64,000 bases of DNA from NCBI GenBank assembly GCA_958295745.1, contig OY282370.1, forward strand, positions 2,888,548 to 2,952,547, in the 5' to 3' direction. The position numbers and the translations under genes are program-made. This document shows positions 59,263 to 64,000 of the stretch, one piece after another. The notes under the pieces are model-generated. The model was given only the letters and a program-made list of their open reading frames with translations, was not told the DNA's origin and did no database searches. Every line of letters starts with the position of its first letter. Position 1 is the first letter of the stretch. Source of the DNA: an uncultured Acidimicrobiia bacterium (GTDB lineage: Bacteria; Actinomycetota; Acidimicrobiia; Spongiisociales; Spongiisociaceae).

Positions 59263-61335
59263 TCAGGCGCCGAACCAGCGTTCGTGGAGCCGTTCGTAGA
59301 CGCCGGACTCGATCAATTCGAGCAGGGCGAGGTCGATCTGCTCGCGCAACTCGTCCTCGTCCTCGCCGATGACCAGCCCGTACCGCACCTTCTCGAAGAG
59401 TGGTCCGACCGTCGACACCTGGCCGCGGCCCTGGCGGGAAGCATGGAAACGGAGCACGGGGGCGTCGAACACGACGGCGTCCACTTCGCCCAGGGCCAGG
59501 AGGTCGTAGGCCTCGTCGATCTCGTCCACCAGCACCGGACCCACCCCGATCGTCGAAAGATAGGACTCCCCGGCCGATCGGGCCACGGTGGCCACCCGTT
59601 TCCCCGGCAGATCGGTGGGGCCGGAGATGCCGCTCCTCAGCTCGCTCACCGCCAGCGAAGAGGCGATGGAGGCGGTGAAGCTGGCGAACACCAGGGTTCC
59701 CAGGGCGATCCATATGAGCGCCACCACCCGCCCCCTAATTCCCCGGGCCACTTTGTCACCGTATCCCACCGTGCTCATGGTCACCACCGACCAGTAGAAG
59801 GAGTCCCATATCCCCCGCAGATACGGAGTGGCGAAGTCGGGGTTGTGCCGGCGTTCCAGCAACCAGATCAGATGCGCCGCCACCAGCACCGCCACCCCGA
59901 ACACGATCAGCAGCCAGGGCAGGTCGGAGGATGAGATGGCCCGGAAGAAGCCCAGGATCCGGTCGCCGAAGGTGCGGGCGGCGCGGGTGGGCGCCAAGAT
60001 GGTCAGGCCGGTGTCGAGCACCGGGAGGGAGAAATCGACCAGCTCGGCGCGTGATCCGGTGATGGCCACCCCTCCCAGCGCCAACCGGGCCGCCCCGCGG
60101 GTCACGTCGTCGAGCTGTTTGGCGACGGTGTCCACCCCGTAGATATCCACCGTCATTCCCAGCCGGGCCGCCAGGAAACGGACCAGCTCCACCTCGAAGC
60201 CGCTGTAGGCGCGGTTCTCGTAGATGACGTAGGGCGGCAGCGGGCGGGCCGCCACGGTCAGCACACTGCCGTCCGCCGCCGTTTGCTCGCTTCCGGTGTC
60301 GTCCAGCCCCACGGCACCGGGGTCGGCGGTCTCGATCCAACGGTCGACCATGGCCCGGTTGTCCGCTATCCACTCCTCGGCGTGCCGCCGGATATCCGCC
60401 GGGTCCCCTTCGTCGGCCACCATCCGGGCGTTCTGTGCCGAGATGTCGTCGAGGGGGATGACCACCTGCTCCAGCAGCCGGCGGATCGACGGGTTGTCCG
60501 CCAGGAAGCCGGAATTGGCCACCACCAGGATGTCGTTGGGCGGCCAGCCGGTCTGGCACGGGTCGTTGGCGCAGCCGGGAATGCCGGGAATGGAGGTGCG
60601 GTCGAGCGCCGCGGCCTGATCCGGGGGGAGAGAAGGAAAGGGTGTCTCCAGCCACACCACATCACGGCCGGGCACCAGCTCGCCCACCGTCCAGTTGGGG
60701 GTCCAGGTATAGAAGAGCACGGGCTGCCCGGAGTTGTAACGGTCGATCGTCTCGGTTATCAACGGTGAATAGTCGCCCTGTACGTGCTCGACCGCGCCGG
60801 ACAAACCGTAGGCTTCGAGGTGGTGGTCTATGGTCGCCGTGCAGGACCATCCGATGTTGCAGCCGATGAGGTCGGCCCGGCCGTCTCCGTCGCGGTCGAA
60901 AAGGGCGGCGATCGTAGGATCGGCCAGGTCGCCGAGGTTGGTGAGGCCGTGAGCCTCGGCGGTCGCCGCGTCGACGAAATAGCCTTGGAGCGCCCCGTCG
61001 TCGACCTGCGTGCCGACCCGTTCCACCGGGCCTCCCTCCTCGACGTAGGAGTCGTGCAGCGGGAACCATCCGTTGGCCCACAGGTCGACCCCGCCCGCCG
61101 CCGCGGCCCGGTAGAACTCGGCGACTTCCATGGTGACCGGACCTTCCACCGGGTAGCCGAGCATCTGGAGCAGCAACCGGTAGACCTCCGCCTGGAACCA
61201 TCCGGTGTCCCAGGTGGGCCGGGCAAGGCGCACCGTCGGCTTTTCGTCGGGAGTCTGCGCCGACACCCCCGCGACCGGCGGGAGGACCAGCACGGCGGCC
61301 AGGATTCCCAGGACGGCGATGGCAGTTCGGCGCAT
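59263..61335 (-). CDS. OpuAC betaine-binding-like domain fused to GluR0-type ligand-gated K+ channel
   Basis: About 690 aa. A Sec signal peptide (1-26, AVLGILAAVLVLPPVAGVSA) precedes an OpuAC/ProX-like substrate-binding domain (about 35-330), with TWDTGWFQ, DLWANGWFPLHD and an inserted DRDGDGRAD loop (147-155) resembling an EF-hand calcium loop. A second ligand-binding domain of the SBP_bac_3/ionotropic-glutamate-receptor type begins near 365 (LPPYVIYENRAYSGFEVELV). It is split by a two-helix pore module: M1 WLLIVFGVAVLVAAHLIWLL, pore loop SVVTMSTVGYGDKV (TVGYGD at 522-527, potassium selectivity) and M2 VALIWIALGTLVFASFTASI. The second lobe (GPTDLPGKRVATVARSAGES to the end) follows. This S1-M1-P-M2-S2 order is that of cyanobacterial GluR0. 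ATG 61335. Divergent from a BCCT carrier. The fusion with OpuAC suggests gating by a compatible solute. Confidence 0.88.
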   Translation of the reverse strand: MRRTAIAVLGILAAVLVLPPVAGVSAQTPDEKPTVRLARPTWDTGWFQAEVYRLLLQMLGYPVEGPVTMEVAEFYRAAAAGGVDLWANGWFPLHDSYVEEGGPVERVGTQVDDGALQGYFVDAATAEAHGLTNLGDLADPTIAALFDRDGDGRADLIGCNIGWSCTATIDHHLEAYGLSGAVEHVQGDYSPLITETIDRYNSGQPVLFYTWTPNWTVGELVPGRDVVWLETPFPSLPPDQAAALDRTSIPGIPGCANDPCQTGWPPNDILVVANSGFLADNPSIRRLLEQVVIPLDDISAQNARMVADEGDPADIRRHAEEWIADNRAMVDRWIETADPGAVGLDDTGSEQTAADGSVLTVAARPLPPYVIYENRAYSGFEVELVRFLAARLGMTVDIYGVDTVAKQLDDVTRGAARLALGGVAITGSRAELVDFSLPVLDTGLTILAPTRAARTFGDRILGFFRAISSSDLPWLLIVFGVAVLVAAHLIWLLERRHNPDFATPYLRGIWDSFYWSVVTMSTVGYGDKVARGIRGRVVALIWIALGTLVFASFTASIASSLAVSELRSGISGPTDLPGKRVATVARSAGESYLSTIGVGPVLVDEIDEAYDLLALGEVDAVVFDAPVLRFHASRQGRGQVSTVGPLFEKVRYGLVIGEDEDELREQIDLALLELIESGVYERLHERWFGA

Positions 61336-61625
61336 AGGTGGGATATCGGGGTAGGGGAGGCGAAGGATAGCGAAAGTAAGTAGATGGCCGCGGGCCACCC
61401 GAAAATATTGATCCAACTTATAAATAAGACCATGTAACCACCCTGTTTTAAACCCTTTTCACGGAAACCTGGAATAAAAACGGAAAATCGGATGCACCGG
61501 TGCGATGCAAGTGGTAGTTTTTCCCTGACTGGGTCCCGCAGCCGGTTCACCGGGTGCGAGCAGAACCGGGTACGCCGATGGAGAGGAGCTGGTGCCAGTG
61601 GTTGCGCAGATCGAAAGGAAGCGCC
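61336..61625. other. 290-bp divergent regulatory region (channel / BCCT)
   Basis: Gene-free, with an AT-rich centre (61400-61460, including TTATAAATAAGACC and TGTTTTAAACCC) likely holding both promoters. No obvious operator palindrome. It links the channel and the betaine-transporter operon for joint regulation. Confidence 0.5.
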
Positions 61626-63392
61626 ATGACTGAAAGGGACCTGACCGAGGCAACCTCGGCGCTTCAGGACTGGGAGCAGGAGGAGGAAGGCCGTCGGCAG
61701 GAGGCGATCCACAACCGGAAAGCCTTCGAAGGCCTCCAGGTCGATCCCGACATCGAGTTCTATCCAGAGGTGGCCGACCGTTCGCCCGGTGATAAGAACA
61801 TCGTCCGGTTCGGGTTCGACATGCACCCACAGGTAACGTTCTGGTCCGCCGGATTCCTTACAGTCTTCATCGCCCTGTCGCTGATCTTCTCCGACGCCAC
61901 GAGCGGGATATTCGGCGCCATTCTGAGTTTCATAAACGAAAGCTTGGGTTGGCTGTACGTCCTCGACTTCAACATCTTTTTGGTCTTGGGCATCTATTTC
62001 GCCATGAGCAGATATGGAAAGATCCGCTTAGGCGGCCCCATGGCCCGGCCGGAGTTCTCGACCGGCGCCTGGTACGCGATGTTGATATCGGCCGGTATCG
62101 GCATCGGGTTGATGTTCTGGGGGGTCGCCGAGCCGATCTTCCACCTCAGCTCGCCTCCGCCCGTGTTCGGCGCAGAGCCGGCGACGGGAGAGGCCGCGAA
62201 GGCGGCGATCGCGACGACCTATCTGCACTGGGGATTCCATGCTTGGGCTCTCTACGGGCTCGTCGCCCTTGCGCTGGGGTTCTTCGCGTACAACCGGGGC
62301 TTGCCCCTTACCTTCCGGTCTATCTTCTACCCGATCCTCGGGCCGAAGATCTACGGCGGTTGGGGCAACGCCATCGACACATTGACCGTCGTGGCGACCC
62401 TGTTCGGGCTGGCGACTTCGCTGGGGTTCGGCGCCGGCCAGGCCGCAGCCGGATTGAACAGACTGTTCGGTTGGCCGTCGGACACCTGGTTCCAGATCGT
62501 GCTGATCGCCTGCATCACGGGTCTGGCCACCATCTCGGTGGTCGCCGGATTGGATGCCGGTGTGAAGCGGCTGAGCCAGCTCAACATCTACCTGGCCGGG
62601 GCGTTCCTGCTATTCGTAGCGATAGTCGGACCGACCCTGTTCATACTCTCGCTGTTCACCCAGAGTCTGGGCCACTACATAAGCATCCTGCCCGAGTTCG
62701 GCTTCTGGAACGAGGCTTTCACGGGCACCAATTGGCAAGCGAGTTGGACCATCTTCTACTGGGGATGGTGGATCTCATGGTCGCCGTTCGTAGGGATGTT
62801 CGTAGCCCGGATATCGAAGGGCCGCACCGTTCGGGAGCTGCTCTTGGGCATCATCTTCCTGCCTTCGGTGCTGTGCTTCCTCTGGTTCTCGGTCTTCGGC
62901 GGATCGGCTATCCGCCTGCAGCTCACCGGAGCCAGGGATGTGGCGACGGCCGTCAACGAAAACGTGGCGACAGCCCTCTTCGACATGCTGGAGGCCTTCC
63001 CGCTGACCGGCTTCGTCTCCTTGGTCGGCGTGTTCCTGCTGGTCTCGTTCTTCGTGACCTCCTCGGACTCCGGCTCTCTGGTGGTGGACCATCTGACTTC
63101 GGGAGGCAAGCTCGACTCGCCCAAACCCCAGCGGGTGTTCTGGGCGGTCATGGAAGGGACGGTCGCCATCGTCCTGCTGCTCGGCGGCGGCCTGTCGGCC
63201 CTGCAGACTGCGGCGGTCGCAACCGGACTTCCGTTCGCCATCATCCTGCTCATAATGTGTTGGAGCCTCAAGAAGGCCTTCGACGAAGAGCTGGACCTGT
63301 TGGAGAGTCACTACGACGAGGCGATCTTCCGCTCCCGCCACAAGGGGCTCCTCACCAAACTGGGGCTGTCCCGTGACCAGGAGGAGGTGTGA
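61626..63392 (+). CDS. BCCT-family betaine/choline/carnitine transporter
   Basis: A 588-aa secondary transporter with 12 membrane segments. The family signature WGWWISWSPFVGMFVARISKGRTVRE contains the aromatic substrate-binding box, supported by GIGLMFWGVAEPIFH and SFFVTSSDSGSLVVDHLTS. A 75-residue acidic N-terminus and a charged C-terminal tail (DQEEV) may serve osmosensing, as in BetP, by inference. ATG 61626 with GGAAGCGCC upstream. The next gene starts two bases after its stop. Confidence 0.93.
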   Translation: MTERDLTEATSALQDWEQEEEGRRQEAIHNRKAFEGLQVDPDIEFYPEVADRSPGDKNIVRFGFDMHPQVTFWSAGFLTVFIALSLIFSDATSGIFGAILSFINESLGWLYVLDFNIFLVLGIYFAMSRYGKIRLGGPMARPEFSTGAWYAMLISAGIGIGLMFWGVAEPIFHLSSPPPVFGAEPATGEAAKAAIATTYLHWGFHAWALYGLVALALGFFAYNRGLPLTFRSIFYPILGPKIYGGWGNAIDTLTVVATLFGLATSLGFGAGQAAAGLNRLFGWPSDTWFQIVLIACITGLATISVVAGLDAGVKRLSQLNIYLAGAFLLFVAIVGPTLFILSLFTQSLGHYISILPEFGFWNEAFTGTNWQASWTIFYWGWWISWSPFVGMFVARISKGRTVRELLLGIIFLPSVLCFLWFSVFGGSAIRLQLTGARDVATAVNENVATALFDMLEAFPLTGFVSLVGVFLLVSFFVTSSDSGSLVVDHLTSGGKLDSPKPQRVFWAVMEGTVAIVLLLGGGLSALQTAAVATGLPFAIILLIMCWSLKKAFDEELDLLESHYDEAIFRSRHKGLLTKLGLSRDQEEV

Positions 63393-63394
63393 GG

Positions 63395-64000
63395 ATGACC
63401 TACAAGGCATACAAGACGGACCACACGGTCCTGGGCGCCACCGGAACGAAGTTGGCGGGCTTGGCGGCCGCGCTGATGTTGGTGCTGGCGGCCTGCGGGG
63501 GGGACGTGGACTCCGGAGAGGTAAAGATGGCCCGGGCGGACTGGGGCAGCGGCCACATGCAGGCCGCCATCTACGCCCAGCTCATCGGTGAGCTCGGATA
63601 CGAGGTGACCGACCCGGCCGAGAACACCCTCGACCCCAACGGGTTCTACCCCGCCCTGGCCAGCGGTCAATACGACCTGTGGGCCAACGGCTGGTTCCCG
63701 CTCCACGACATCTACCTCAAAGGTGAGCTGGTCACCGGACAGGCGACCGACCTGCCGATCGAACCGGTTGGCTGGCAGGTGGCGTCCGGAGCCCTCCAGG
63801 GGTACATGGTCGACATGGCCACGTCGGAACGGCTGGGGATCACCACCATGGCCGATGTGATCGCAAACGCCGGAGCATTCGACATGGACGGTGACGGACG
63901 CGCCGACCTGATCGGATGCAACAAGGGATGGGGTTGCAACACCGTCATAGACCAGCACATCTCCGAGTTCGGCTGGGGCGGCAGCGTGGAGCAGGTGGTA
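63395..64000 (+). CDS. OpuAC/ProX-like betaine-binding lipoprotein, 3' end outside window
   Basis: The first 202 residues are visible. A signal peptide ends in lipobox LAAC (Cys34), followed by a compatible-solute-binding domain: MARADWGSGHMQAAIYAQLI, DLWANGWFPLHD (near 95-106), ALQGYMVDMATSERLGI and a DMDGDGRADLIGCNKGWGCN segment. The same WANGWFPLHD and DxDGDGRADLIGCN blocks occur in the channel fusion encoded on the other strand. ATG 63395 is two bases after the BCCT stop, with GGAGGTGTGAGG upstream. Possibly the start of an ABC importer continuing beyond the window, or a ligand-presenting protein. Confidence 0.88.
   Translation, partial: MTYKAYKTDHTVLGATGTKLAGLAAALMLVLAACGGDVDSGEVKMARADWGSGHMQAAIYAQLIGELGYEVTDPAENTLDPNGFYPALASGQYDLWANGWFPLHDIYLKGELVTGQATDLPIEPVGWQVASGALQGYMVDMATSERLGITTMADVIANAGAFDMDGDGRADLIGCNKGWGCNTVIDQHISEFGWGGSVEQVV

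Follow-up and report, generated by a model that had tools for sequence, protein, structure and literature searches.

A ProX-type solute-binding domain joined to a GluR0-type potassium channel, often encoded beside a BCCT family carrier

The stretch of DNA considered here (the window) comprises 64,000 nucleotides from an uncultured Acidimicrobiia bacterium, positions 2888548-2952547 of a 3.0 Mb contig (OY282370.1, assembly GCA_958295745.1), and its final 4.7 kb consist of three genes, encoding a channel protein, a carrier of the BCCT family and an OpuAC/ProX lipoprotein. The product of the first, at 59263-61335, joins a complete ProX domain and a GluR0-type channel in one chain. An earlier note on this DNA, made from the sequence alone, had centred on the idea that the three proteins respond to the same solute; it is the fusion itself, only implicit in the note, more than that idea, which is the interesting object.

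The locus and its channel protein

The features of the locus, in window positions, are the following.

59263..61335, minus strand: ProX-GluR0 fusion K+ channel subunit, 690 amino acids (Pfam, PDB sequence match, AlphaFold2 model, fold match)
61252..61335, minus strand: probable signal peptide, residues 1-28 (hydrophobic N-terminus by eye, model helix 2-17)
60316..61236, minus strand: ProX/OpuAC domain, residues 34-340, with cage residues W90, H94, W163, C165 and W211 (match to 1r9l)
59980..60264, minus strand: S1 lobe of the amino-acid-binding domain, residues 358-452, with T426 and R429 (Pfam SBP_bac_3, match to NpGluR0 2pyy)
59635..59922, minus strand: M1, pore loop and M2, residues 472-567 (Ion_trans_2, Lig_chan, model helices)
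59755..59772, minus strand: K+ selectivity filter TVGYGD, residues 522-527 (read from the sequence)
59269..59613, minus strand: S2 lobe of the amino-acid-binding domain, residues 575-689, with D624 (Pfam SBP_bac_3, match to 2pyy)
61336..61628, no strand: intergenic region between the divergent channel and carrier genes (read from the sequence)
61629..63392, plus strand: BCCT family carrier, 587 amino acids (Pfam BCCT, NCBIfam BCCT, nearest solved structure)
63389..64000, plus strand: OpuAC/ProX lipoprotein, cut at the window end (Pfam OpuAC, lipobox LAAC in the sequence)

The channel protein is thus ordered as probable signal peptide, ProX, S1, M1, pore, M2 and S2. Pfam recognises OpuAC and then SBP_bac_3 split by Ion_trans_2 and Lig_chan, and in a phmmer search against the PDB the first half of the protein matches Escherichia coli ProX (1r9l; E 1.5e-66), the second half NMDA receptors and the GluR0 ligand-binding core from Nostoc (2pyy). 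The fusion also scores 344 bits with the NCBIfam ProX model, above the cut-off of 215, and copies in databases may therefore be hidden under the name ProX. In an AlphaFold2 model built from 29 relatives (mean pLDDT, the per-residue confidence, 83), residues 29-340 superpose on 1r9l with Z 36.5, 39% identity and a root-mean-square deviation (rmsd) of 2.4 over 301 aligned residues, and the rest of the protein superposes on NpGluR0 (2pyy; Z 28.3, rmsd 2.0, 212 aligned) and GluR0 (1ii5; Z 26.8, rmsd 2.3, 219 aligned). By homology with GluR0, the channel should assemble as a tetramer. Its N- and C-terminal ends should both face the outside, as in GluR0, the topology of which has been measured (PMC13099474).

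Conservation of the ligand sites and of the filter was assessed across 29 diverse fusions, all of which contain all the domains. According to a published table, betaine in 1r9l is contacted by W65, H69, W140, G141, C142 and W188 (PMC10087775); counted along the alignment of the PDB match, these correspond to W90, H94, W163, S164, C165 and W211 of the channel. The equivalents of W65, W140 and C142 are invariant (29/29), that of W188 is always aromatic (Trp in 21, Phe in 7 and Tyr in 1) and that of His69 is kept in 25; the G141 position is not conserved, and we take it to be a backbone contact. These ligand-contact residues persist across phyla at overall identities of 40-75%, and in the linked lipoprotein all cage residues are kept (14/14 genomes). 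In the amino-acid site, where the Arg and Asp align with those of 2pyy, T426 and R429 never vary, and D624 is present in 27 of the 29 fusions. The TVGYGD filter is kept in 28. Two Jiangellaceae fusions, from Haloactinopolyspora and Phytoactinopolyspora (L094:5809-7944 and L114:6173-8056), have TPFGAGN at the position of the TVGYGD found in all the rest, a change common to one lineage.

The channel gene is divergent from the BCCT-OpuAC lipoprotein pair, a layout described in the earlier note and borne out by our gene calls. The channel frame (59263-61416, minus strand) is open up to a TTG at 61416, with the ATG at 61335 as the likely start, and the likely start of the BCCT frame (61554-63392, plus strand) is the ATG at 61629. 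The carrier matches Pfam BCCT with an E-value of 2e-187 and scores above the cut-off of the NCBIfam BCCT model TIGR00842. The lipoprotein gene, the start of which overlaps the end of the BCCT gene by 4 bp, runs outside the window to a window-equivalent position of about 64450, with a full length of 353 amino acids. The opuAA and opuAB genes, which the earlier note had suggested looking for after position 64000, are absent, as are other ABC transporter genes, both at the locus and directly past the lipoprotein gene. Instead, the lipoprotein gene is followed by a type I restriction-modification system (L007:8802-16668), in which a gene for a DUF3644 protein is inserted between those for HsdM and HsdS and that for HsdR.

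The two OpuAC domains of the locus (Pfam OpuAC, E 7e-46 and 3e-39) are 50% identical over about 335 amino acids (E 7.8e-89), far beyond chance. The motifs WANGWFPLHD and DGDGRADLIGCN, by which the earlier note had tied them together, do occur exactly in both; they are, however, family-wide rather than specific to this pair, and their counterparts in E. coli ProX are AVNWTPLHD and NGDGKADLTGCN. The domains are likewise paralogous in the sense of belonging to one family, but in a tree of ProX domains (56 rows) they fall in different supported clades: the fused domains form one group (support 95/88) with a single outsider, and the linked lipoproteins belong to a second group (96/88), together with further OpuAC proteins from actinobacteria. 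Given these separate groups, the two domains are old relatives, and a recent local duplication is ruled out. Elsewhere in the same genome there is a separate OpuAC gene cluster with a permease gene (L008:3429-11500; G000:C1:2009928-2018095), which includes a tandem protein with two OpuAC domains in an open frame of 830 amino acids; tandem OpuAC frames also occur in relatives. In Marinimicrococcus flavescens, six OpuAC genes are consecutive (L122:1256-8149).

Spread, history and linkage to BCCT genes

In the family to which the window belongs, the full-length fusion is present in 11 other sampled genomes and is split across contigs in one more, and one sampled genome from elsewhere in the order also has it. 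Two peptide patterns, run against 84,980 species genomes, yielded 76 loci, about 60 of them with the fusion. These come from seven phyla (Actinomycetota, Cyanobacteriota, Chloroflexota, Myxococcota, Thermodesulfobacteriota, Bacteroidota and Kiritimatiellota), as assigned from record titles and NCBI ranks, several of the phyla being represented by a single metagenome-assembled genome each. The fusion is rare, being found in 5 of 396 genomes across the phylum of the window and in 6 of 148 in one cyanobacterial order. Several of the record titles name marine, sponge-associated or salt-lake bacteria. Spread on plasmids was considered and rejected, there being no plasmid record that covers the fusion.

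In a tree of the channel module, all fused channels share a single clade (100/99), which lies among GluR0-like channels of cyanobacteria and actinobacteria, and the noncyanobacterial fusions all belong to one clade within it (96/95). Nested in the fused clade are four unfused cyanobacterial channels, so that loss of ProX and a second fusion both fit (for a strict fused clade, the approximately unbiased (AU) test gives p 0.09). For the ProX domains, a strict clade of fused domains is not supported, since one outsider, L121, lies inside it, and is not rejected either (AU p 0.19). The outsider, from an uncultured Chloroflexaceae bacterium (L121:330-2468), has a ProX domain closely akin to the fused ones joined to a soluble amino-acid-binding SBP_bac_3 domain, with no pore, and on its domain composition is predicted to be another two-sensor fusion for betaine and an amino acid. 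The simplest story would be a single fusion, perhaps in cyanobacteria, after which one line lost ProX and the fusion was transferred to other phyla; its direction is not proven, because the tree is midpoint-rooted and unfused channels from other phyla are scarce in it.

The genes for carrier, binding protein and channel stay together, with the channel divergent from the BCCT-OpuAC pair, in 12 genomes of the window's family, although in the window's genome the three-gene block has the opposite orientation, with respect to uvrA and a methyltransferase gene, to that in the other family members. In unrelated bacteria the order differs. The channel is convergent with OpuAC-BCCT in loci L082, L083, L089 and L090; BCCT, OpuAC and channel genes are co-directional in L066, L071 and L084; and a more distant OpuAC protein is encoded between BCCT and channel in L109 and L115. 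The BCCT gene precedes the channel gene, with a 4 bp overlap, in L108 (Kiritimatiellae), and also precedes it in L097 (Chloroflexi), and the channel gene is followed by BCCT in L099, L104, L112 and L131. In total, a BCCT gene is nearby in 45 of 62 fusion loci, which are not independent and several of which lie on short contigs. Across the phylum sample, any BCCT gene is found in 92 of the 396 genomes (23%), compared with all 5 fusion genomes, in which the single reported copy adjoins the fusion; 17 of 18 further fusion genomes have BCCT, mostly as one copy. Within about 6 kb of unfused GluR0-like channels (n = 4), we found neither BCCT nor OpuAC. OpuAC and BCCT genes also lie close to each other in genomes with no detected full-length fused channel (G438, G362, G371, G354, G422 and G445), and the carrier-lipoprotein pair may therefore be a module of its own.

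A possible betaine-response unit and its alternatives

Collectively, we favour, with a probability of roughly 0.6, the reading that the locus is a betaine-response unit, in which a betaine-regulated, amino-acid-binding K+ channel is coupled to betaine uptake. The unit would comprise the BCCT carrier, the ProX-type lipoprotein and the K+ channel with its own outer ProX domain, and for its ligands, gating, direction of K+ flow and physiological role we infer the following. Glycine betaine or a close trimethylammonium solute would close the ProX domain and an amino acid, probably glutamate-like, the S1S2 domain, the two ligands jointly setting the degree to which the K+ pore opens. With betaine outside and its import by the carrier under way, the channel would let K+ move. 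Potassium kept as an emergency osmolyte could be released through the channel, which might also steady the membrane potential that drives Na+-coupled betaine uptake. A betaine-sensing K+ channel beside a betaine-type carrier could in this manner time the exchange of K+ for betaine. Salt-stressed bacteria first gather K+ and glutamate, which leave when neutral solutes later replace them, and a role in cell volume has been described for GluR0 (PMC13099474); some halophiles alternate between KCl and glycine betaine (PMC7042295).

That carrier, binding protein and channel share one solute, as the earlier note had argued, is plausible because the cage residues are conserved and the linkage recurs in different gene orders. 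The grounds originally offered do not carry this conclusion: sharing of family-wide motifs says little about the pair, and a common promoter cannot be the argument when other genomes have these genes in a convergent or co-directional arrangement and when no conserved operator is present among the 19 divergent channel/carrier intergenic regions compared.

Several observations weigh against a betaine-response unit. The best NCBIfam model for the carrier is the betaine one, at 543 bits under its cut-off of 650, and the nearest solved structure is that of a trimethylamine transporter. The His69 equivalent is replaced in 4 of the 29 diverse fusions. The conservation of the cage is only a modest signal, because much of the ProX domain is conserved: among 100000 random draws of five positions from the domain, 1132 were as conserved as the five cage side-chain positions or more so. 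No BCCT gene stands next to the fusion in its cyanobacterial, Jiangellaceae, Desulfosarcinaceae and Bacteroidetes members, and the placement of the domains in the channel model is uncertain, given a predicted template modelling score (pTM) of 0.49.

A bolder variant, which we put forward tentatively and consider possible rather than probable, makes the channel a coincidence detector with two unlike sensors, the K+ pore opening fully only in the joint presence of a betaine and an amino acid outside. In its logic such a detector would resemble co-agonist-gated NMDA receptors; it would have arisen separately from the animal N-terminal domain and occur in seven phyla.

Conversely, the ProX domain might only aid assembly or spacing, with the amino acid alone gating the channel and the proximity of betaine genes being a matter of history. 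The N-terminal domain of animal receptors partly serves assembly, and animal-receptor chimeras function without it (PMC6385376); the nesting of the four unfused cyanobacterial channels among fused ones likewise suggests that ProX can be lost. We nevertheless consider this unlikely, as ligand-contact residues have persisted across phyla, and the BCCT linkage, which unfused channels do not show, turns up repeatedly under differing gene orders.

We see an equally small chance that the channel is a nutrient sensor for betaine-type solutes, which would signal through the membrane potential and have little osmotic role. Betaine can serve bacteria as a source of carbon and nitrogen, and the trimethylamine transporter as the carrier's nearest solved relative would suit such a role; on the other hand, no catabolic genes were recognised beside the three-gene block in the window's genome, a weak counterargument, most other neighbourhoods not being annotated gene by gene.

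More improbable still is that the fused ProX domain acts as a tethered binding protein that passes betaine on to either the carrier or an ABC permease, with the channel part mainly an anchor. Relatives of ProX do supply ABC permeases, as in E. coli ProVWX, where ProX delivers to the permease, and the window's genome encodes a permease with several OpuAC genes elsewhere. However, the locus itself is devoid of ABC genes, BCCT carriers are not, to our knowledge, users of binding proteins, and the conservation of the filter and of the amino-acid site counts against an anchor, which would need neither. Finally, although three loci are split into two frames by a frameshift or stop, through sequencing error or decay (L110:5896-8132, L114:5593-8056 and L116:5941-8099), many independent genomes, including those of cultured strains, carry the fusion as an open frame of full length and so rule out an assembly chimera or a broken gene, the chance of which we regard as negligible.

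Comparison with known systems

Prokaryotic glutamate-receptor channels have been described as being without an N-terminal domain (PMC12551409), as has GluR0 (PMC6385376), and OpuAC is not among the architectures in the domain survey of 100 prokaryotic sequences by Ger et al. 2010 (PMC2950845). The open-access literature, to which our search was confined, with subscription journals and UniProt/InterPro architecture lists outside it, contained no described OpuAC-channel fusion that we could find. The fusion breaks the description of the prokaryotic members as lacking an N-terminal domain. It adds to a GluR0-like channel a second sensor, for which the likely class of ligand is known, and the channel often travels with a carrier for that class. 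It thereby offers a concrete, testable idea of the purpose that a ligand-gated K+ channel serves in bacteria, a question largely left open by GluR0, and a natural model for the control of a pore by an outer domain.

Like GluR0 of Synechocystis and NpGluR0 of Nostoc, the fused channel has a ligand domain split by M1-P-M2, a TVGYG filter, the Arg and Asp of the amino-acid site, probable outside-facing ends and no M4, and in the tree the fused channels nest with cyanobacterial GluR0-like ones. Of the features of Group 1 of Ger et al. 2010, the fusion has S1 and S2 flanking M1-pore-M2, the TVGYG filter and the Arg and Asp of the amino-acid site, and its hydrophobic N-terminus is a probable signal peptide; the absence of an N-terminal domain before S1, part of the GluR0-type description rather than a strict criterion, does not apply. 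GluR0 is without such a domain (PMC6385376, PMC12551409); the fused channel has a complete ProX domain ahead of S1 and is often encoded next to a BCCT gene. With E. coli ProX of the ProU ABC transporter, the outer domain shares its fold and the betaine-contact residues; that ProX, however, is a separate protein serving an ABC transporter, whereas here the domain is covalently joined to a channel and the locus has no ProV or ProW genes. As for the BCCT carriers BetP, BetT and TmaT, the neighbouring gene encodes a full BCCT protein, but it is paired with the gene for a ProX lipoprotein and its closest solved relative moves trimethylamine.

The animal ionotropic glutamate receptors (NMDA, AMPA) also place an outer domain before the ligand domain and pore, whereas the fusion is without M4 and has a K+ filter. 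Their N-terminal domain derives from LIVBP-like proteins (PMC12551409); because the outer domain here is OpuAC/ProX instead, the likeness in layout is convergent. Should the proposed betaine-response unit hold, its role would be to match K+ flow to the uptake of a salt-stress protectant, in a relative of the glutamate-receptor channels of the brain.

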